A DNA stretch of 64,000 nucleotides from an uncultured Actinomycetes bacterium (lineage in GTDB: Bacteria > Actinomycetota > Acidimicrobiia > Acidimicrobiales > SZUA-35). Positions 49,507 through 62,516 of this stretch are shown here, piece by piece; positions within the stretch are counted from its first letter, which is position 1, and the number at the start of each line of letters is the position of its first letter. The position numbers and the translations under genes were made by a program. The stretch is taken from the NCBI GenBank assembly GCA_902826025.1, contig CADEDH010000011.1:7247-71246 (forward strand). The letters run 5' to 3'. Below the pieces are notes generated by a model that was given only the letters and a program-made list of their open reading frames with translations, was not told where the DNA came from and ran no database searches.

Positions 49507-52500
49507 GTGAGCATCACGGTCGCACTCCGCCATCGCATGACCTACGAATATCCGGGACGGTCCGAGCTGGCGGCCCAGGTGGTCCGCCTCCGCCCCGCCC
49601 CCCACGCTCGCACCCCGATCCTGTCGTACTCCCTGACGGTCGAGCCGGCCGAGCACTTCCTCAACTGGCAGCAGGACCCGTTCGGCAACCACCTGGCTCG
49701 CATCGTCATCCCCGAGCCGACCGACCACTTCAGCGTCGAGGTGAACCTGGTGGCCGAGCTGGTGACGATCAACCCGTTCGACTTCTTCCTCGAACCCGAG
49801 GCCGAGCGCGTCCCGTTCGCCTACGAGCCCGACCTCCTGGCCGACCTGGGCCCCTACCTCCGCACCGACGGCCCCTGGGCCGGCGAGCTGGCCCGCTGGC
49901 TCCAGCCGGTGGCCAAACGCCTGGAAGACAAGCCCACCACGGTCGACTTCCTGCTCGACCTGACCCGCCAGCTGGCCAACGAGATCGACTACGAGATCCG
50001 CTACGAGCCCGGGGTCCAGCCCAGCCTCACCACGCTCGACCGGCGGGCCGGCTCCTGCCGGGACTCGGCCTGGCTGCTGGTGGAGGCCCTGCGCCAGCTG
50101 GGGATGGCGGCCCGGTTCGTGTCGGGCTACCTGGTGCAGCTCACGGCCGACGTGGCTCCCCTGGAGGGCCCATCGGGCCCAGCCCAGGATTTCACCGACC
50201 TCCACGCCTGGGCCGAGGTGTACCTGCCCGGCGCCGGCTGGATCGGGCTCGACCCCACCTCCGGCCTGGCCGCAGGCGAGGGCCACATCCCGCTGGTCGC
50301 CACCCCCGCCCCCCAGAGCGCGGCCCCCATCACCGGCACCTCCAGCATCGTCGCCTCCCGGTTCGACTACTCCAACGAGGTCACCCGGGTGGCCGAGGCG
50401 CCCCGGTCCACCAAGCCCTACCCCGAACCGGTCTGGGAAGCCGTCACCCGCCTCGGCCACGTGGTCGACGAAGCTCTGGCCGCCGGCGACGTTCGCCTCA
50501 CCATGGGGGGCGAGCCCACGTTCGTGTCGGCCACCGAGTTCGAGGCTCCGGAGTGGACCACCGACGCCGACGGCGACGACAAGCGCCGCAAGGCCACGGC
50601 GCTGGCCGAACGGCTCAAGGCCCGCTTCGGGCCGGGGGGCCTCATCCAGCACGGCACCGGCAAGTGGTACCCGGGCGAGCCCCTGCCCCGGTGGGAGATG
50701 AACCTGCTGTGGCGCACCGACGGCGAGCCCGTCTGGCGCGATCCGTCGCTGCTGGCCAGCCCGTTCGCCGATCTGGGCCACGATCACACCACCGCCCGCC
50801 GATTGGCCGACGCCGTGGCCGCCGAGCTGGGTGTACCGTCGGGCCACGTGCTCGACGCCTACGAGGACCCGGTGTACGGGCTGTGGCGGGAGTCGACGAT
50901 CCCGGTGGACGTGGATCCCCGTACCGCCGACCTCGACGACGCCGACCACCGCCGCACCTTGGCCACCATGCTGGAACGGGGCCTCGGCACCCCGGTGGGC
51001 ACCGTCCTCCCGCTCGACCGGGTGGATGACCGGTGGCGCACCAGCCCTTGGCCGCTGCGCCGGTCCCAGGTGTTCCTGACCCCCGGCACCTCGCCGATGG
51101 GTCTCCGCCTCCCGCTCGACACCCTGCCCGACGGGGCCGACACCTGGCCCGACCCGGTGATCGAGCCCGACCCTCTGGAGGCCCGTCCGCCGCTGCCCTC
51201 CGGCGCTGACGACCCGGCCGTCGTCGGTGCCTGGGCCACACCGGCCCTGGTGGCCGAGGCCCCGGTGGTGATCCGTACCGCCCTTGTGGTGGAGGCCCGC
51301 GACGGCGTCACCCGGGTGTTCCTGCCTCCGGTGGCCCGGCTGGAATGGGCCCTCGACCTGGTCACGGCGATCGAACGGGCGGCCGCCGCCACCGCCGTGC
51401 CGGTGGTGCTCGAGGGCTACGCCCTGCCCGGCGATCCCCGCCTCAGCCGGCTCAGCGTCACCCCCGACCCCGGGGTGATCGAGGTCAACGTTCAGCCCGT
51501 GGCCAGCTTCGCCGAGCTGGAGGCCCTGGCCACCGGCCTCTACGACGACGCCCACCAGGTGGGCCTGGGTACCGAGAAGTTCCATCTCGACGGCCGCCAC
51601 ACCGGCACCGGTGGCGGCAACCACATCACGATCGGCGGCCCCACCGCCGCCGACAGCCCGCTGCTCCGCAACCCGGCCCTGCTGGCCAGCCTCGTGACCT
51701 ACTGGCAGCACCACCCGGCGCTGTCGTACGCCTTCTCCGGCATGTTCGTGGGGCCCACCAGCCAGGCCCCCCGGGTCGACGAGGCCCGCCACGAGAACCT
51801 CCACGAGCTGGAGATCGCCCTCCACGAGCTCGACCGGGCCGCCCCGGCCAGCCCATGGCTGGCCGACCGGGCCCTGCGCCACCTGCTCACCGACCTCACC
51901 GGCAACACCCACCGGGCCGAGCTCTGCATCGACAAGCTCTACTCACCCGACCACAGCCGGGGCCGCCTCGGGCTGCTGGAGCTACGGGCGTTCGAGATGC
52001 CGCCCCACCCCCGCATGTCGGTGGTCCAGGGGCTGCTGGTGCGGGCTCTCGTGGCCTGGCTGTGGGAGCACCCGTACCGCAAGCCGCTGATCCGGTGGGG
52101 CACCGACCTCCACGACCGCTTCCTCCTGCCCCACTACCTGGCGGCCGATGCCCGGGCGGTGTGCGACGACCTGCGCGCCGCCGGCTTCGCCTTCGACCCC
52201 GAATGGCTGGAACCGTTCTTCGAGTTTCGCTTCCCCCGCTACGGCACCGTGGTGGCCGGTGACACCACGGTCGAACTGCGGGCCGCCATCGAGCCATGGC
52301 TGGTGCTGGGCGAGGAGGCCACCGGCGGCGGCACCGCCCGCTACGTCGACTCCTCGATGGAGCGGCTCCAGGTGAAGACGACCGGATTCATCGCCGACCG
52401 CCATCATCTCCTGGTCAACGGACGCCGGGTGCCGCTGCGGCCCACCGGGCGGCCGGGCGAGCACGTGGCCGGCATCCGCTACCGGGCCTGGCATCCGTCG

Positions 52501-52902
52501 TCGGCACTCCATCCGACGATCGGGGTCCATCATCCGCTGAACTTCGAGGTGGTCGACGGCTGGACGGCCAAGGCCATCGGTGGGGCCCGCTACCACGTGG
52601 CCCACCCCGGAGGGCGGGCCTACGACGTGCTGCCGGTCAACGCCCTGGAGGCGGAGGCCCGACGCCAGAGCCGGTTCGACGACTGGACGCTGGTGCCCCA
52701 GGGCCCGTCGTTCAACCAGCACCCGGGCGATGAGCCCCACGACGGCCGGAGCCTCCCGGGGCCGATCGCGGCCCGGGCCCCCCGTCCGGCCACCAGTGGC
52801 GCCGGTCTGGAGGCGATCGTCGTCACCGACGCCCCGGTGGTGATCGATCAGACCGAAGTCGACCTCGACTTCCCCGTCACCCTCGACCTCCGCACCGCCT
52901 AG
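49507..52902 (+). CDS. transglutaminase-like protein fused to DUF2126
   Basis: The 1131-residue protein has a bacterial transglutaminase N-terminal beta domain (about 1-90), a transglutaminase-like cysteine-peptidase core (about 130-260) with triad Cys184 ([10 protein letters not shown]), His233 (LHAWAEVY) and Asp249 (GLDPTSG), then a long DUF2126 region (about 300-1090: [61 protein letters not shown]). DUF2126 resembles circularly permuted peptide-ligase/GS-like partners. The family travels with Anbu, alpha-E and ATP-grasp genes and is thought to act on peptides or protein tails; the substrate is unknown. GTG start; length is normal for the full fusion. Confidence 0.92.
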
Positions 52903-53717: not shown

Positions 53718-54107
53718 CGCGTCATCTCCCCATTCCGGGCCCTGGTGCCCCGGCGACCGACCCTACCCGCCCCCACCGCCAGCGGGCGAACAGCTTCGTC
53801 CCCCGATGCCCGCTCCCCGATCTCGGTGCACCACGCACCACGGGCGGTTTCCCCTGCGCCCAGACCTTGAGCGCCCCCGCACCCGGTGCGCCACAAGCCA
53901 CCGGCGGCGCCCCAGGCACCCGGTGCACCACAAGCCACCGGCGGCGCACCAGACACCGAGTGCGCCACGCACCACGGGCGGCGCCCCACGCACCAAGACG
54001 CCGGGCGCCCACGCACCTGGTGCGCCACGCACCATGGGCGGCGACGGGGGACGGCGGCCTCGGCTCGGCGGCCTTGCACGGGCCGGGCGGGGCGCACAGG
54101 ATGCGGG
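53718..54107. other. 390-bp gene-free region with degenerate repeats
   Basis: Between the divergent lactonase and LLM genes. No credible gene: the reverse-strand frame of about 190 codons is made of the repeats. It contains a 23-bp motif repeated five times (separate entry). No clear promoter was identified, although both flanking genes need one here. Confidence 0.6.
53825..54041 (+). repeat. five copies of a 23-bp motif at 60/37/37/60-bp spacing
   Basis: Consensus GGTGCRCCACRMRCCACSGG plus CGG, starting at 53825, 53885, 53922, 53959 and 54019. The intervals are 60, 37, 37 and 60 bp; 60 equals 37 plus one 23-bp unit, and a degenerate unit is recognisable in the longer gap after 53959. Copies 2 and 3 share an AAGCCACCGG variant; copies 1, 4 and 5 have GCACCAC/TGGG. 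Confidence 0.75.
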
Positions 54108-55121
54108 ATGGCCCTGCGTCGCTCGATCGTGTTCGCCACCAGCCTGTTCGCTCCGCTGACGGGACTGGCCCGGGAGGCGGAGGCGGCGGGCTTCGATCGG
54201 GTGTGGACCACCGAGTTCCCCGACCGGGACGCCCTGGTGCGGGCGACCGTGATCGGGCTGGCCACCGAACGGATCGGTGTCGCCACCGGGATCGCCTACA
54301 GCTTCACCCGCCATCCACTGGCCCTGGCCGCCGCTGCCCTCGACGTCCACGAGGCCATCGGCGGCCGGTTCACCCTGGGCCTCGGCACCGCCACCGCCGC
54401 CATGCGTTCCCGCTGGTACGGGCTCGACGACGGCCGGGCCATCGGCCGCCTGGCCGACGCCGTGGCCCTGATCCGTGCAGCCTGGGTGGCCGACGGCCGG
54501 TTCCGCCACGAGGGCGAATTCTTCCGGGGTCGGGTGGAGGGGCTCGATCTGGCGCCCCGGGCGGCCGCTCTTCCGCCCCTGCCCATCCTCGGCTCAGGGC
54601 TGAACGCCGCCATGCTGCGCGGCGCCGCCCGCTGCTGCGACGGCCTCGGCCTCCACCCCCTTGCCGCCGCACCCCTCTACGCCGAGCGCACCGTCGCCCC
54701 CATCCTCGCCGCCCGGGGGAACGGGTTCCCGGCGGCGATGTGGGTGATCACCCAGATCGACGAGGACGGCGAGGCGGCCCGGGGCCGGGCCCGCCGGGCG
54801 CTGGCGTTCTTCTTCTCCACCCCGGGCTACGAGACGGCGGCCGAGGGTGAGCCCTGGGCCGACGCGCCGGAGCGAATCCGCCGCCGTTTCACCGAGACCC
54901 GGGCCGACTGGGACGCCGTCAGCGCCGAGGTGCCCGACGAGATGGTCGATGCCATGACCCTGGCCGGCACCCCCGACGAGGTCCGGGCCCGCCTGCCCGC
55001 CGTCGAGTCCCGCCTGGCCGACCTCGGCATCGACGAGCTCGTGTTCCAGACCGGAGCCGACCTCGACGAGCCCACCTTCGTGGCCAACTGCCGCCAGATC
55101 ATCGCCTGCTGCCACCCCTGA
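54108..55121 (+). CDS. LLM-class flavin-dependent (probably F420) oxidoreductase
   Basis: A 337-residue luciferase-fold enzyme. Marks are AREAEAAGFDRVWTTEFPDRDALV, GVATGIAYSFTRHPLALAAAALDVHEAIGGRFTLGLGTATAAMR, and PILGSGLNAAMLRGAARCCDGLGLHPLA near the cofactor site. The pattern resembles MSMEG-type F420-dependent oxidoreductases. Substrate unknown. It stands alone between the repeat region and the convergent amidotransferase-transglutaminase gene, and so interrupts the Anbu/ATP-grasp block. Start is ATG 54108; longer frames would translate the repeat array. Confidence 0.83.
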   Translation: MALRRSIVFATSLFAPLTGLAREAEAAGFDRVWTTEFPDRDALVRATVIGLATERIGVATGIAYSFTRHPLALAAAALDVHEAIGGRFTLGLGTATAAMRSRWYGLDDGRAIGRLADAVALIRAAWVADGRFRHEGEFFRGRVEGLDLAPRAAALPPLPILGSGLNAAMLRGAARCCDGLGLHPLAAAPLYAERTVAPILAARGNGFPAAMWVITQIDEDGEAARGRARRALAFFFSTPGYETAAEGEPWADAPERIRRRFTETRADWDAVSAEVPDEMVDAMTLAGTPDEVRARLPAVESRLADLGIDELVFQTGADLDEPTFVANCRQIIACCHP

Positions 55122-55151: not shown

Positions 55152-56888
55152 TCAGGCTTCGGTGACCCGGACGTTGATCGACATGGTCTCGGTGCCGCCG
55201 CCGCCGAGGTAGATGACGCCTGACGTGGGGGTGGCGTCGCGGTAGTTACGGCCCTTGGCCACCCGCACATGGTCGGCCCCCACCCGGCTGCCGTTGGTGG
55301 GGTCGTAGCCCCGCCATCCCATCATCGGCAGGAACGCCTCCACCCAGGCGTGCGAGGCGTCGGACTGGACCTTGTTGTCGTAGTCGGACCCGGTGAAGAT
55401 GTACCCCACCCGGTAGCGGGCCGGGATGTTGAGCATCCGGGCCAGGCAGATCATCAGGTTGGCGAAGTCCTGGCAGACACCGGCCCGGCTGGAGAACACC
55501 TCGTAGGGCGTGGTCTCCAGCGTGGTGAACCCCGGTTTGTAGGAGTAGTCGGAGTAGATCGTCCAGGCGATGTCGTCGAGGGTGGCCAGCAGCTCGGACC
55601 GGTTGCGTTGGGCGAAACTGCGGGCGTAGGTGTGCAGCTCCTCCAGCTCGCTCTCCGGCAGCTCGGGTGGCAGCAGATAAGAGTGCATCATGTGCTCCTG
55701 CCACGGCATCCACATGATCGGCAGCTTGGGGGTGCGGGGCAGCAGATCGGGATGGTCGATCGGAGCGGCCACCGTGACCAGGGCGTTCACTGCGATCGAC
55801 AGCTGCTGGTAGGGGGCGTCGAGCTCGAGGCCGATCACGTCGTTGCCGAACACGTCTTCGAAGTCCCACCGCAGGCCCTGCACGCTGATGTCGACCGAGT
55901 GCTTGGCCACCTGCTGGAACTTGTCGTGCACCGGGGTGAGGCGGATCCGGTGGCTGGAGCGCTCAACCGGCTCCTCGTAGCGGTACGCGGTGATGTGCTC
56001 CACGTGGAGCCGCCGGTAGAGCGAGCGCGGCGCCAGGGCCAGGGGCGACGGCACCGCCACCGAGCCCGGCTCGGCCGGCCGGCCCTGCCCGAACTCGGCC
56101 GGGGCTACCACCCGCCCGCCCTGTACGGCAGCGTAACCACCAGGAGTGATCTCCTCGAAGTGCTCGTCGTCGAAATCGATCGTGGACACCACCACCCCGG
56201 AACGGTTCCAGTCCTGGTGGCCGCCCAGGCGCACCGACACCCCGTAGCGGGACAGGTTGAGGTCGCCGTCGGCGTGAGGCGGCACGAACCGCCCGGCGTA
56301 GAGGGGCTGGAACGCCGACGTGCAGCGGTAGCCGATCAGGGTGGAACCGTCGGACAACAGCAGGTTGAGGGCGCCCAGCTCGTTGGCCCGGCGCAGCAGC
56401 TCCACCAACCGCTCGATGCCGAACTCCTCGATGGTGTCGGCCCCGGCATCCACCAGATGCTGGAGGAGCCAGCAGAACAGGTGCTCGGTGTCGGTGGGCC
56501 CCACCGGCCGGAGCGACGGGTGGACGGGCAGCGGCAGCTCTTTGGACAGGTCGCCGATCAGGTCGCCGTTGTGGGCGATCAGCCACGACCGGCCGGCGAA
56601 GTTGCGCACGAACGGGTGGGTGTCGCGATAGGTCGCACGCTTGGCCGCCCCCCGCAGGTGGGCCATGAGTAGGCCGGTGCGCATCATGCCCCAGTCGGCC
56701 ATCACGTCGGTGACGCCGGCCGACAACCCCGATGTGGGGTCGCGGATGTTGGCCGCCCCCAGCTCGTCGTTGGGGTACCAGGCCACCCCCCAGCCGTTGC
56801 GCTGGTCCACCACTGACGAGGGATCGTCGTCGAAGGCCAGGTAAGGCGACGCCGGTTGGTCGAACGACAGCCCGACGAGCTCGCTCAC
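55152..56888 (-). CDS. class II glutamine amidotransferase-like domain (Cys2 replaced by Ser) fused to transglutaminase
   Basis: The 578-residue fusion has an N-terminal class II GATase (YafJ-like, about 1-265) with NGWGVAWYP (31-39), LLMAHLRG, THPFVRNFAGRSWLIAHNGDL (90-110, including Asn107-Gly108) and GPTDTEHLFCWLL. A transglutaminase-like half follows (about 290-560) with intact triad Cys472 (AGVCQDFANL), His513 (SHAWVEAFL) and Asp529 (GYDPTNG). The GATase nucleophile, normally Cys2, is Ser here (GTG AGC GAG CTC). After Met removal the protein would carry an N-terminal Ser, still possible for an Ntn hydrolase. It follows the ATP-grasp/alpha-E gene by 57 bp. No Shine-Dalgarno is seen. Confidence 0.88.
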   Translation of the reverse strand: MSELVGLSFDQPASPYLAFDDDPSSVVDQRNGWGVAWYPNDELGAANIRDPTSGLSAGVTDVMADWGMMRTGLLMAHLRGAAKRATYRDTHPFVRNFAGRSWLIAHNGDLIGDLSKELPLPVHPSLRPVGPTDTEHLFCWLLQHLVDAGADTIEEFGIERLVELLRRANELGALNLLLSDGSTLIGYRCTSAFQPLYAGRFVPPHADGDLNLSRYGVSVRLGGHQDWNRSGVVVSTIDFDDEHFEEITPGGYAAVQGGRVVAPAEFGQGRPAEPGSVAVPSPLALAPRSLYRRLHVEHITAYRYEEPVERSSHRIRLTPVHDKFQQVAKHSVDISVQGLRWDFEDVFGNDVIGLELDAPYQQLSIAVNALVTVAAPIDHPDLLPRTPKLPIMWMPWQEHMMHSYLLPPELPESELEELHTYARSFAQRNRSELLATLDDIAWTIYSDYSYKPGFTTLETTPYEVFSSRAGVCQDFANLMICLARMLNIPARYRVGYIFTGSDYDNKVQSDASHAWVEAFLPMMGWRGYDPTNGSRVGADHVRVAKGRNYRDATPTSGVIYLGGGGTETMSINVRVTEA

Positions 56889-56945: not shown

Positions 56946-59396
56946 TCAGCTACGCGCCAGGAAGAATTCGGCATGGACCTGATCGCTGAAAGCCTCGAGG
57001 TCGGCGGCGTAGGAGCGCAGCCAGCGGCTGGGCGATCCGGCCAGCCAGTCCGACGTGGGCCGTTCCAGACGATCGACCAGCTCCCGCATCATCTTCAGGG
57101 CCCCGGTGTCGGGCTGATCGCTGTCTTCGGTGGTCATCACACTCAGTTGGCGCTGGCAGCGGTGGGCACACCACAGCAGGCTCCGGGGGAACTCCCGGTC
57201 CTGAACGAGAAAGTTTATTGCGTCGATCGGGTCGAGCGATGTCTGGAACACCCGGCGGTACTCCTGCAGCGCCCCCGCCGCCCGCAGCAGATTCGACCAG
57301 TGGCCCACCAGCGCCCGGTCGTGGCCCATCAACCGGGCGAAGTACACCTCGATGAGCCGGGCCATGAGCAGGCCCCGCTCGGTCATGCGGCCCACGGTGA
57401 GAAACCGCCAGGCGTCGTTGCGGGACATAGTGGCCTCGGTGATCCCGAGGAAGGTCTGACAGATCCGGCTGACCTGGGCAAACAGCTCCTGGGGCTCCTC
57501 ACGGAGCTTGCGGTCGAGGTCGAGGTCGCACAGCTCCATCCAGGCGTCGTTCACCGCCCCCCGCAGCTCCACCGGTACCCGCTCCCGGATGCCCCGGAGG
57601 TTGGAACGAGCGGCGGCCAGGCACGACAGGATCGAGCCCAGGTTGGCCCGGTCGTCGACCAGGAACCGGGTGACAGCGTAGGTCTCCAGCTGGTGGCCGG
57701 CCTCGTCGAACTCGGTGGTGAGGGCGAGTACCTCGAGCAGCTCGCTCCACCGGAGGCCGGCCTCCACCGGCAGCCCGGAAAGGACCCCGTGGTGGGCCTC
57801 GGCCAGCATCCGGGCCGTGCCGTCCATCCGCTCCAGGTAGCGGCCGGTCCAGTACAAGGGCTCGGCCACCCGGGCCAGGATCACGTCGTCGCTGGTGCGG
57901 CCGGCCTGGTCGAGGGGGCGACTGATCCCCACCCGGCCCTCGTCGTCCCGCAGCACCCAGGTGTCCTTGGACCCGCCCCCCTGTGACGAGTTCACCACCA
58001 GTGAGCCCTTGCGCAGCGCCACCCGGGTGAGGCCGCCGGGTAGGACGTCGATGTATTCGCCGCCCACCACGAAGGGCCGGAGATCGATGTGGCGGGGCTC
58101 CAGCCGCCCGTCCACCAGGGTGGGGTGGCGGCTCAGCTTGATCACCCGCTGGGCGATGTAGCGGTGGGGCTCGGCGTCCACCAGGGCGCGGATCTCGGCC
58201 ACCCCTTCGTCGGTGGCCTGGGGGCCGATGAAGATGCCGTAGCCCCCCGAGCCGTCGACCGGCTTGATCACCCACCGGGTGGGGTCGGCCATCACCTCGG
58301 CCCGGGGCTCGGGGTTGCGCAGCAGGAACGTCTCCACGTTGGACAGGATCGGTACCTCGTTCAGGTAGTACCGGATCATGTCGGGCACGAAGGTGTACAT
58401 GGCCTTGTCGTCGGCGGCGCCGTTGCCGAGCGCGTTGGCCAGCGTCACGGCGCCCGCCCGGGCCGCCCTCACCAGACCCTTCACCCCGAGCATGGAATCG
58501 GGGTGGCCCACCTCGGGGTCGAGGAAGGCGTCGTCGACCCGGCGGTAGATCACGTCCACCTGCTTGCGGCCCCGGGTGGTGCGCATCCATACCCGGCCGT
58601 CGTCGACCATGAGATCCGAGCCTTCCACCAGGGCGACGCCCATGTTCTGGGCCAGGAAGGCGTGCTCGAAGTAGGCCGAGTTGTAGATGCCGGGTGTGAG
58701 CAGCACCACGGTGGGCAGGCGGCCTTCCACCGCCGGTGGGGCAATCGACTGCAGGGCCCGTAACAGCAGCGTGGGGTACTGCTCGACCGTGCGGATCTTC
58801 GCTTCGGCCAACATCTTGGGCAGGAGCCGGGTCATGGCCAGGCGGTTCTCCAGCACATAGGAGACCCCCGATGGCACCCGCAGGTTGTCCTCCAGCACCA
58901 GGTAGCGGCCGTCGTCGTCGCGCACCAGGTCGATGCCGGCCACCAGGGCCCGGGCGTTGAACGGCTGGGGGATGCCCTTGGCCCACTCGGTGTAGCCGTC
59001 GGCTCCCGCCACCAGGTCGGCGGGGACGATCCCGTCGTTGACGATGGCGGCCGGCCCGTCGTAGATGTCGCCCAGGAACTGGTTGAGGGCCCGGAGGCGC
59101 TGCACCAGGCCGGCCTCCACCTCGGCCCACTCGGTGGCCGGGATCACCCGGGGCACCAGATCGAGGGGGAAGGTGCGCTCGGTGCCGTCGGTGTCGCCGT
59201 AGACGGTGAAGGTGATGTCACGGGTGCGGAACAGGGTGTCCTTCACCTGTTGGCGACGGACCAGCTCGTCGGCCCCCATGACCGAGATCTGATGGGCCAC
59301 CAGCTCATAGGTCGATCGGAAGGCCCCTGCCTGGTCGACCACCTCGTCGAAGAAGCCGTCGTGGTCGTACTCGGCGAAAGGCCCGCTCTGTGCCAT
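56946..59396 (-). CDS. circularly permuted ATP-grasp fused to alpha-E domain
   Basis: The 816-residue protein joins a circularly permuted ATP-grasp ligase (about 1-470: FLGDIYDGPAAIVNDGIVP, VLEDNLRVPSGVSYVLENR, DVIYRRVDDAFLDPEV, LANALGNGAADDKAMYTFVPDMIRYYL, WVIKPVDGSGGYGIFIGP) to an alpha-helical alpha-E domain (about 500-800: RVAEPLYWTGRYLERMDGTARML, RANLGSILSCLAAARSNLRGIRE). These are often two adjacent genes. ATP-grasp proteins of this type are predicted peptide-bond-forming enzymes. ATG 59396 is chosen because TACTGT lies 6 nt upstream; the GTG at 59441 has no support. The fused GATase-transglutaminase gene follows. Confidence 0.92.
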   Translation of the reverse strand: MAQSGPFAEYDHDGFFDEVVDQAGAFRSTYELVAHQISVMGADELVRRQQVKDTLFRTRDITFTVYGDTDGTERTFPLDLVPRVIPATEWAEVEAGLVQRLRALNQFLGDIYDGPAAIVNDGIVPADLVAGADGYTEWAKGIPQPFNARALVAGIDLVRDDDGRYLVLEDNLRVPSGVSYVLENRLAMTRLLPKMLAEAKIRTVEQYPTLLLRALQSIAPPAVEGRLPTVVLLTPGIYNSAYFEHAFLAQNMGVALVEGSDLMVDDGRVWMRTTRGRKQVDVIYRRVDDAFLDPEVGHPDSMLGVKGLVRAARAGAVTLANALGNGAADDKAMYTFVPDMIRYYLNEVPILSNVETFLLRNPEPRAEVMADPTRWVIKPVDGSGGYGIFIGPQATDEGVAEIRALVDAEPHRYIAQRVIKLSRHPTLVDGRLEPRHIDLRPFVVGGEYIDVLPGGLTRVALRKGSLVVNSSQGGGSKDTWVLRDDEGRVGISRPLDQAGRTSDDVILARVAEPLYWTGRYLERMDGTARMLAEAHHGVLSGLPVEAGLRWSELLEVLALTTEFDEAGHQLETYAVTRFLVDDRANLGSILSCLAAARSNLRGIRERVPVELRGAVNDAWMELCDLDLDRKLREEPQELFAQVSRICQTFLGITEATMSRNDAWRFLTVGRMTERGLLMARLIEVYFARLMGHDRALVGHWSNLLRAAGALQEYRRVFQTSLDPIDAINFLVQDREFPRSLLWCAHRCQRQLSVMTTEDSDQPDTGALKMMRELVDRLERPTSDWLAGSPSRWLRSYAADLEAFSDQVHAEFFLARS

Positions 59397-59514
59397 GGCC
59401 CGACAGTACTCCAACAACCCGTTCAGCAGCTCAGCCTCCACACCCCCCCTATCGGACCTTCCTCACCCCGTTTGACCAGGATCTTTCGCGCATCTGAACA
59501 GCGACCCGAATCCG

Positions 59515-61094: not shown

Positions 61095-62516
61095 CTACTC
61101 GGGGATCACCACCTCGACCCGCCGGTTGAGCTGGCGCCCGGCCGGGTCGTCGGTGCCGTCGGCCTTCTCGTTCGGGGCCGCGGGGCGGGTCTCACCGAAA
61201 CCGGTGGTGGTGATCTCGCTCGTCACCCCCTGGGCCACCAGGGCTGCCTTGAACGACTCGGCCCGCCGCTGGGACAGATCCTGGTTGTAGTCGTCCGAGC
61301 CCTTGGAGTCGGTGTGCCCGTGGACCTCGATGGGCTTGCCCGACTCGATGACGGCCTTGGCCACTGCCTCCACCACCGGGGCGGCCTCCGGCCGGAGCTG
61401 GTCGGAGTCGAAGTCGAACAGGACGTCGCCGTCCATCCGGATCACCGTGGCGCACGGGGGCTGCAGCTTGCCGAGCCGATCGAGCGGGGGGAACCGGTCG
61501 GCCACCGCGAACACCGGCCGGGGCCCGGCGATCAGGACTTCGGGGTCCAGGATCCCGATCTCGGTGGTGAAGGTGCTGGAGGTTCCCGCCTCACCGTCGA
61601 CATAGGTTCCCTGGCCGTTGCTGTCGACGTCGATGCTCAAGCTGGTGTCAGGTCCGTTGTCGGTGAAGGTGCCGGAGCCGTCGGCCAGGACCGTGAGCGA
61701 CAGGTTCTTGTCCAGCGAGACGTCGGTGATGGACCACGACCCGTCGGGCAGGGCGGTGACGGTCACGTTCTTGTCGGTCCCGAGATCGGTGAAGGTGCCG
61801 GATCCATCGGCCAGGACGTCGATACCAAGGTTCCGGTCGCCTCCGGTGTCGGAGTACGAGCCCGACCCATCGGGGAGGATGGCGATCGAAAGGTTCCGGT
61901 CGCCACCGGCATCGGAGTACGTGCCCGACCCATCGGGCTCAACCACGATGCTCAGGTTCCGATCGCCACCGACATCGGAGTACGTGCCCGACCCATCGGG
62001 CTCAACCACGATGCTCAGGTTCCGATCGCCCCCCACGTCGGAATAGGTGCCCGACCCATCGGGCTCCACCACGACCGAGACGTTCTCGTCGCCGCCGACG
62101 TCGGAGTAGGTACCCGAGCCGTCGGTGGCGATGTCGAAGAAGCTGTCGTCGTCCCCGCCCTGGTAATCGAGACTCCCGCCGTCGGCGGCGCATGCCGCCC
62201 CCACAACGTCGATTCCAGAGGTCGGCGAGGCCAGGTCCCCCACCGACTGCTCGACCTGAGCTCCCCCGGTGCCCAGCACCGACACGTCGGGCAGCACGAT
62301 GGGGGGAACGAAGGGGACGTCGACCCGGGGAACGATCCGTTCGCCGCCGGCCGACGAGTCATCGGTGGCGCCGGACGTCGCCGCCGAGGGTGCCGGGGAG
62401 CCGGCCGATGCGTCACCGGCGCCGGTGGCCCCGGTCGCCTCCCCGGCCGATGTCGTGCCCGAACACGCCGCCAGAAAGCCGAGCATGCTCACCAGTACCG
62501 CCGCTTGTCGCCTCAT
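61095..62516 (-). CDS. OmpA/MotB-domain lipoprotein with nine 21-residue repeats
   Basis: A 473-residue secreted lipoprotein. The signal peptide MRRQAAVLVSMLGFLAACSG has lipobox LAAC (Cys18), then a Ser/Ala/Thr/Gly-rich linker. Residues 132-320 are nine tandem 21-residue repeats, DGSGTYSDVGGDRNLSIVVE-like, predicted beta-strands rich in Asp and Gly that could bind calcium or carbohydrate. The C-terminal OmpA domain (about 365-473) shows DVLFDFDSDQLRPEAAPVV, VHGHTDSKGSDDYNQDLSQRRAESFKAAL and NRRVEVVIPE, the peptidoglycan-binding signature. It may link cell wall and membrane. ATG 62516; ribosome site weak. Confidence 0.92.
   Translation of the reverse strand: MRRQAAVLVSMLGFLAACSGTTSAGEATGATGAGDASAGSPAPSAATSGATDDSSAGGERIVPRVDVPFVPPIVLPDVSVLGTGGAQVEQSVGDLASPTSGIDVVGAACAADGGSLDYQGGDDDSFFDIATDGSGTYSDVGGDENVSVVVEPDGSGTYSDVGGDRNLSIVVEPDGSGTYSDVGGDRNLSIVVEPDGSGTYSDAGGDRNLSIAILPDGSGSYSDTGGDRNLGIDVLADGSGTFTDLGTDKNVTVTALPDGSWSITDVSLDKNLSLTVLADGSGTFTDNGPDTSLSIDVDSNGQGTYVDGEAGTSSTFTTEIGILDPEVLIAGPRPVFAVADRFPPLDRLGKLQPPCATVIRMDGDVLFDFDSDQLRPEAAPVVEAVAKAVIESGKPIEVHGHTDSKGSDDYNQDLSQRRAESFKAALVAQGVTSEITTTGFGETRPAAPNEKADGTDDPAGRQLNRRVEVVIPE
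61557..62123 (-). repeat. 63-bp coding tandem repeat (nine units)
   Basis: Nine 63-bp units encode the 21-residue repeats of the OmpA-like protein. Two neighbouring units around 61921-62044 are almost identical in DNA, so recent duplication or gene conversion is likely; the outer units are diverged. Confidence 0.85.

Follow-up and report, generated by a model that had tools for sequence, protein, structure and literature searches.

In this work, we describe a class II amidotransferase domain of the GATase_4 type which is fused to a transglutaminase and carries Ser in the place of the catalytic N-terminal Cys. The gene lies in the window, by which we mean the whole analysed stretch of 64,000 nucleotides from an uncultured Actinomycetes bacterium, and the substitution is common to all five fused proteins found. 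We consider it probable that the domain is a pseudo-amidotransferase, binding glutamine or a gamma-glutamyl group without turnover and serving as a binding or regulatory module of the attached transglutaminase.

The Ser2 fusion gene and its clade

The features of the gene are as follows.

55152..56888, minus strand: GATase_4-transglutaminase fusion gene, 578 aa, GTG start
56883..56885, minus strand: AGC codon of Ser2, site of the catalytic N-terminal Cys (reading of the sequence and alignment)
56100..56888, minus strand: GATase_4 domain (class II amidotransferase, Ntn fold), aa 1-263 (Pfam, AlphaFold model, Foldseek)
56487..56574, minus strand: pocket segment from His106-Asn107-Gly108 (oxyanion hole) to Asp133 (alignment)
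55299..56009, minus strand: transglutaminase part, Bact_transglu_N and Transglut_core, aa 294-530, catalytic Cys472 (Pfam)

Pfam assigned residues 1-263 to GATase_4 with a score above the cut-off (E 1.4e-49), with Bact_transglu_N at 294-371 and Transglut_core at 422-530. Together with the GTG-AGC start, which is read as Met-Ser, this bears out an earlier note on the same DNA, which had reported Ser instead of Cys in a class II amidotransferase domain. The transglutaminase triad, given there as intact, was found in all five fused proteins as the Cys (GVCQD), His (SHAWVE) and Asp (YDPTN, FDPTN or LDPTN) motifs. Cys residues of the window protein are limited to positions 139, 189, 472 and 481, of which Cys472, in the GVCQD motif, is the transglutaminase nucleophile.

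There is next to no probability that Ser2 is a sequencing error or a misread start and that the true protein has Cys2. Only one base separates TGC from AGC, which speaks for an error, but homologues of the whole fusion in four other genomes, G014 (57%), G004 (54%), G594 and G080, also encode residue 2 by AGC or AGT, and this rules out base-calling error even without raw reads. Across the five genes the codons are AGC, AGT, AGT, AGC and AGT, always AGY and never TCN. Between the upstream in-frame stop and the GTG start there is no ATG, GTG or TTG, and no Cys precedes residue 139; an N-terminal Cys could therefore not come from any other start. Both routes by which the observation might have fallen according to the earlier note, reads showing TGC and another start exposing a Cys, are thus closed, and sequencing error and wrong start were rejected as explanations of Ser2. 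At the aligned place the start codon is ATG in three of the four homologues and GTG in G594, where a possible ATG start lies eleven codons upstream; with that start the Ser would be internal.

Unfused GATase_4 relatives served as a control set (n=17; L031, L032, L035-L039, L049, L057-L064 and L067), and each of them has Cys2, in agreement with the premise that family members begin Met-Cys. In a tree of GATase domains the five Ser proteins form one clade with a support of 1.00; the question raised earlier, whether Ser2 is fixed in a clade, is therefore answered in the affirmative, in 5/5 fused proteins. With five fused members known and 54 of 269 domain columns invariant, the invariance of Ser2 is by itself weak evidence. 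The clade is rare and patchy. Apart from the window's own genome, 3 of the 397 order genomes searched carry the fused form; G594 was added by the family search, and the samples of the class (395 genomes) and phylum (396 genomes) gave no further one. Neither a fused protein with Cys nor an unfused one with Ser was present among the 397 order, 39 family, 395 class and 396 phylum genomes, which are overlapping sets, and in plasmids no match covered 80% of the query. The scan of genome contigs returned only two Cys-bearing Aquificota proteins. The AGY-only codons plausibly fit a single ancestral TGY-to-AGY change, in which Ser would have taken the place of the catalytic Cys in the common ancestor of the GATase-transglutaminase fusion clade.

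Pocket residues, constraint and loss of the domain

Roles of the pocket residues (oxyanion hole, hold of Arg and Asp on glutamine) follow what is established for GlmS/PurF-type enzymes. Arg and Asp hold the alpha-carboxylate and alpha-amino groups of glutamine in these, and correspond to Arg79 and Asp133 of the fusion protein. Both are conserved in 13/13 sequences of an alignment of Ser and Cys proteins, in which Gly32-Trp33-Gly34, His77, His91-Pro92, His106 and Gly108 are also invariant. At the site of the oxyanion-hole Asn, position 107, the five Ser proteins have N, H, S, N and D and the Cys proteins either N or H; the window protein and G080 retain the Asn. Three residues past Arg79, at position 82, the Ser proteins show A, A, T, A and S and the Cys proteins T or S, the window protein having Ala82 where Thr or Ser is usual. 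The earlier statement that the Arg, Asn and Gly motifs are kept is thus correct for the window protein (Arg79, Asn107, Gly108) and does not extend to the clade, within which Asn107 varies. As the residues for the amino-acid end of the substrate are kept while the catalytic ones vary, the catalytic side of the pocket appears to be loosening. Two Aquificota GATase_4 proteins with Cys2 (L031, 4908-5636; L032, 4908-5630) have His for the oxyanion Asn (AHHG and VHHG), which means that this Asn is not absolutely fixed even beside Cys, and that drift at position 107 need not mean inactivity.

Pairwise identity among the fused members is 35-52% in the GATase part and 55-69% in the transglutaminase part, the former evolving faster. 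Since third positions are near saturation, differences by codon position were compared in place of synonymous rates. Third positions differ most in both parts of the fusion, an excess which indicates that the GATase domain is still constrained as a protein, though less, and no stops interrupt it in the five genomes.

In G001, of the same genus, an orthologue (L047, G001:C865, 49-942, minus strand) is devoid of the whole GATase domain. In its product, MSELIGLSPDQ-RRLDIEHTTVYQY, eleven N-terminal residues run in frame into the transglutaminase start, with residues about 12-291 missing. Its start overlaps the Alpha-E stop (TGATGA), and the locus is syntenic, comprising aldehyde dehydrogenase, ATP-grasp/Alpha-E and transglutaminase. 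The G001 transglutaminase falls inside the fusion clade (support 0.994 for G000+G001+G004+G014 and 0.999 for all fused), which marks its lack of the domain as a secondary loss. The deletion might be an assembly fault, although the reading frame is preserved across the junction. Elsewhere the G001 genome gave no GATase_4 match, an absence which is not firm at 87% completeness and 8% contamination.

The faster evolution and the clean in-frame loss in G001 would both agree with a decaying structural relic without ligand, the presence of which in front of the transglutaminase is tolerated. We hold this to be quite improbable, since Arg, Asp, Gly and the two His of the pocket have stayed invariant at 35-52% identity, and the freedom from stops and the codon-position bias are typical of a constrained protein.

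Fold relatives and possible function of the domain

The AlphaFold model of the GATase domain (residues 2-284, 13 sequences) has a mean pLDDT of 84 and pTM of 0.85, and a Foldseek search with it gave 1TE5 as the best match (E 3.2e-21) and EgtC as the second (E 1.8e-13), with GlmS and PurF also matched. The full-length model has a mean pLDDT of 67.9, pTM of 0.49 and a linker (266-287) below pLDDT 50, values at which domain contacts or an ammonia channel are not readable. Set against the class II glutamine amidotransferases (MEROPS C44), the domain has the four-layer Ntn/GATase fold and is without the N-terminal Cys. The window protein scores 29.1 bits with the EgtC family model TIGR03442, far under its cut-off of 218.65.

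Chemically, Ser can serve as an Ntn nucleophile; it would be exposed once Met is removed, and residue 2 is small enough for this removal, which counts for an active enzyme. In such an enzyme Ser2 would attack a gamma-glutamyl amide, leading to EgtC-like hydrolysis and not to ammonia transfer, the substrate perhaps being a product of the neighbouring ligases. We regard this activity as unlikely. It is made conceivable by the fixation of Ser2, the invariance of Arg79, Gly108 and Asp133, the high rank among fold matches of EgtC, a gamma-glutamyl amidohydrolase of ergothioneine biosynthesis which removes the gamma-glutamyl group (PMC9103826), and the genuine nucleophilic role of Ser elsewhere among the Ntn families (PMC9140057), but the oxyanion Asn107 has given way to His, Ser or Asp in three of the five proteins, Thr82 is mostly lost, the domain is deleted in G001 and the upstream ATG of G594 would bury the Ser. 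Rather unlikely, too, is the evolutionary form of this proposal, in which the Ntn nucleophile switched from Cys to Ser and a gamma-glutamyl amidohydrolase came to be paired in cis with the transglutaminase. If active, the domain would represent a natural Cys-to-Ser nucleophile switch within the class II amidotransferase family, which to our knowledge is otherwise Cys-based.

The earlier note had offered either a Ser-Ntn catalyst or a binding-only relic. The drift at Asn107 and Thr82, the deletion in G001 and the fixed Arg, Asp and Gly lean to binding only. In the pseudo-amidotransferase that we prefer, efficient glutaminase activity would most likely be lost, and the pocket that holds glutamine or a gamma-glutamyl group by its alpha-amino/carboxylate end would be kept (Arg79, Asp133, Gly108). 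Such a ligand-binding domain may position or regulate the intact transglutaminase in an ATP-grasp/Alpha-E/DUF2126 peptide-modification cluster. Some of the EgtC entries matched by Foldseek are crystal structures of the C2A variant together with the natural substrate, and binding without the nucleophile is thereby documented for the fold; as EgtC, a close fold relative, acts on a gamma-glutamyl group, a glutamyl ligand may reasonably be supposed by analogy. A domain that only binds would be a natural pseudo-amidotransferase controlling a transglutaminase, and would help to show what is recognised, probably a glutamyl end, by the ATP-grasp/Alpha-E/transglutaminase clusters, which are widespread but uncharacterised. 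The same-genus G001, lacking the domain, is a ready natural comparison.

Gene neighbourhood and known systems

Two further genes of the window belong to the same kind of cluster.

56946..59441, minus strand: circularly permuted ATP-grasp (CP_ATPgrasp) and Alpha-E gene, upstream of the fusion gene (Pfam)
49507..52902, plus strand: transglutaminase and DUF2126 putative amidoligase (Pfam)

A luciferase-like gene and a metallo-hydrolase separate the latter from the fusion gene. In G014 and G004, too, ATP-grasp/Alpha-E adjoins the fusion gene, as it does the deleted form in G001; DUF2126 is near the fusion gene in G014 and G594. The fused Ser2 member of G080 (L046, G080:C29, 8949-11009) has neither ATP-grasp/Alpha-E nor DUF2126 within about 9 kb, from which it follows that the fusion can leave the cluster. 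ATP-grasp, Alpha-E, transglutaminase and DUF2126 domains are known to co-occur and have been attributed to a system of peptide synthesis or modification (PMC3597751, citing Iyer 2009); a literature search by domain names found nothing on the function of the cluster.

Repeats were also observed in this region. A 37-nt GC-rich direct repeat in four copies (53871-54044) precedes the luciferase-like ORF (53886-55121) and extends into its annotated start; translation of this gene probably begins further downstream. An OmpA-domain gene (61095-62516, minus strand) contains a 63-bp tandem repeat at 61795-62125 (5.3 copies, 82% matches).

The Ser2 GATase_4 domain on a transglutaminase is new, the domain and the cluster type being already known; no literature on a Ser variant of GATase_4 was found. 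Among Ntn proteins, secernin-1 of the PVA family shares the Cys-to-Ser change at the nucleophile, its precursor not being processed (PMC9140057), but it is eukaryotic, belongs to another Ntn family and has no transglutaminase fusion. The domain is not a member of the penicillin G acylase-type Ser-Ntn family, as Foldseek and Pfam place it with the GATases, and with Ser directly after the start Met it has no propeptide, unlike Ser-Ntn hydrolases made as autocatalytic precursors. The glutaminase-like domain of beta-lactam synthetase has the class II amidotransferase fold and is said to have lost its Cys; it is of the asparagine-synthetase type and is paired with an adenylating synthetase instead of a transglutaminase.

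Closest in fold is 1TE5 of Pseudomonas aeruginosa, a predicted YafJ-like class II amidotransferase (PF13230 GATase_4), which is also alike in sequence (phmmer E 8.9e-17; common motifs HxR, THPF, HNG and TD(S/T)E), whereas it is unfused and has an N-terminal Cys where the window protein has Ser2 and a C-terminal transglutaminase. EgtC (PDB 4ZFJ/4ZFK/4ZFL) likewise has the fold and the glutamyl-pocket Arg, Asp and Gly in common with the fusion domain, but it uses Cys2 as the nucleophile and is without a transglutaminase. As in the known ATP-grasp/Alpha-E/transglutaminase clusters, CP_ATPgrasp with Alpha-E, Bact_transglu_N/Transglut_core and DUF2126 stand side by side here; unlike the ordinary cluster transglutaminases of the same order, that of the window carries the N-terminal Ser2 GATase_4 domain.
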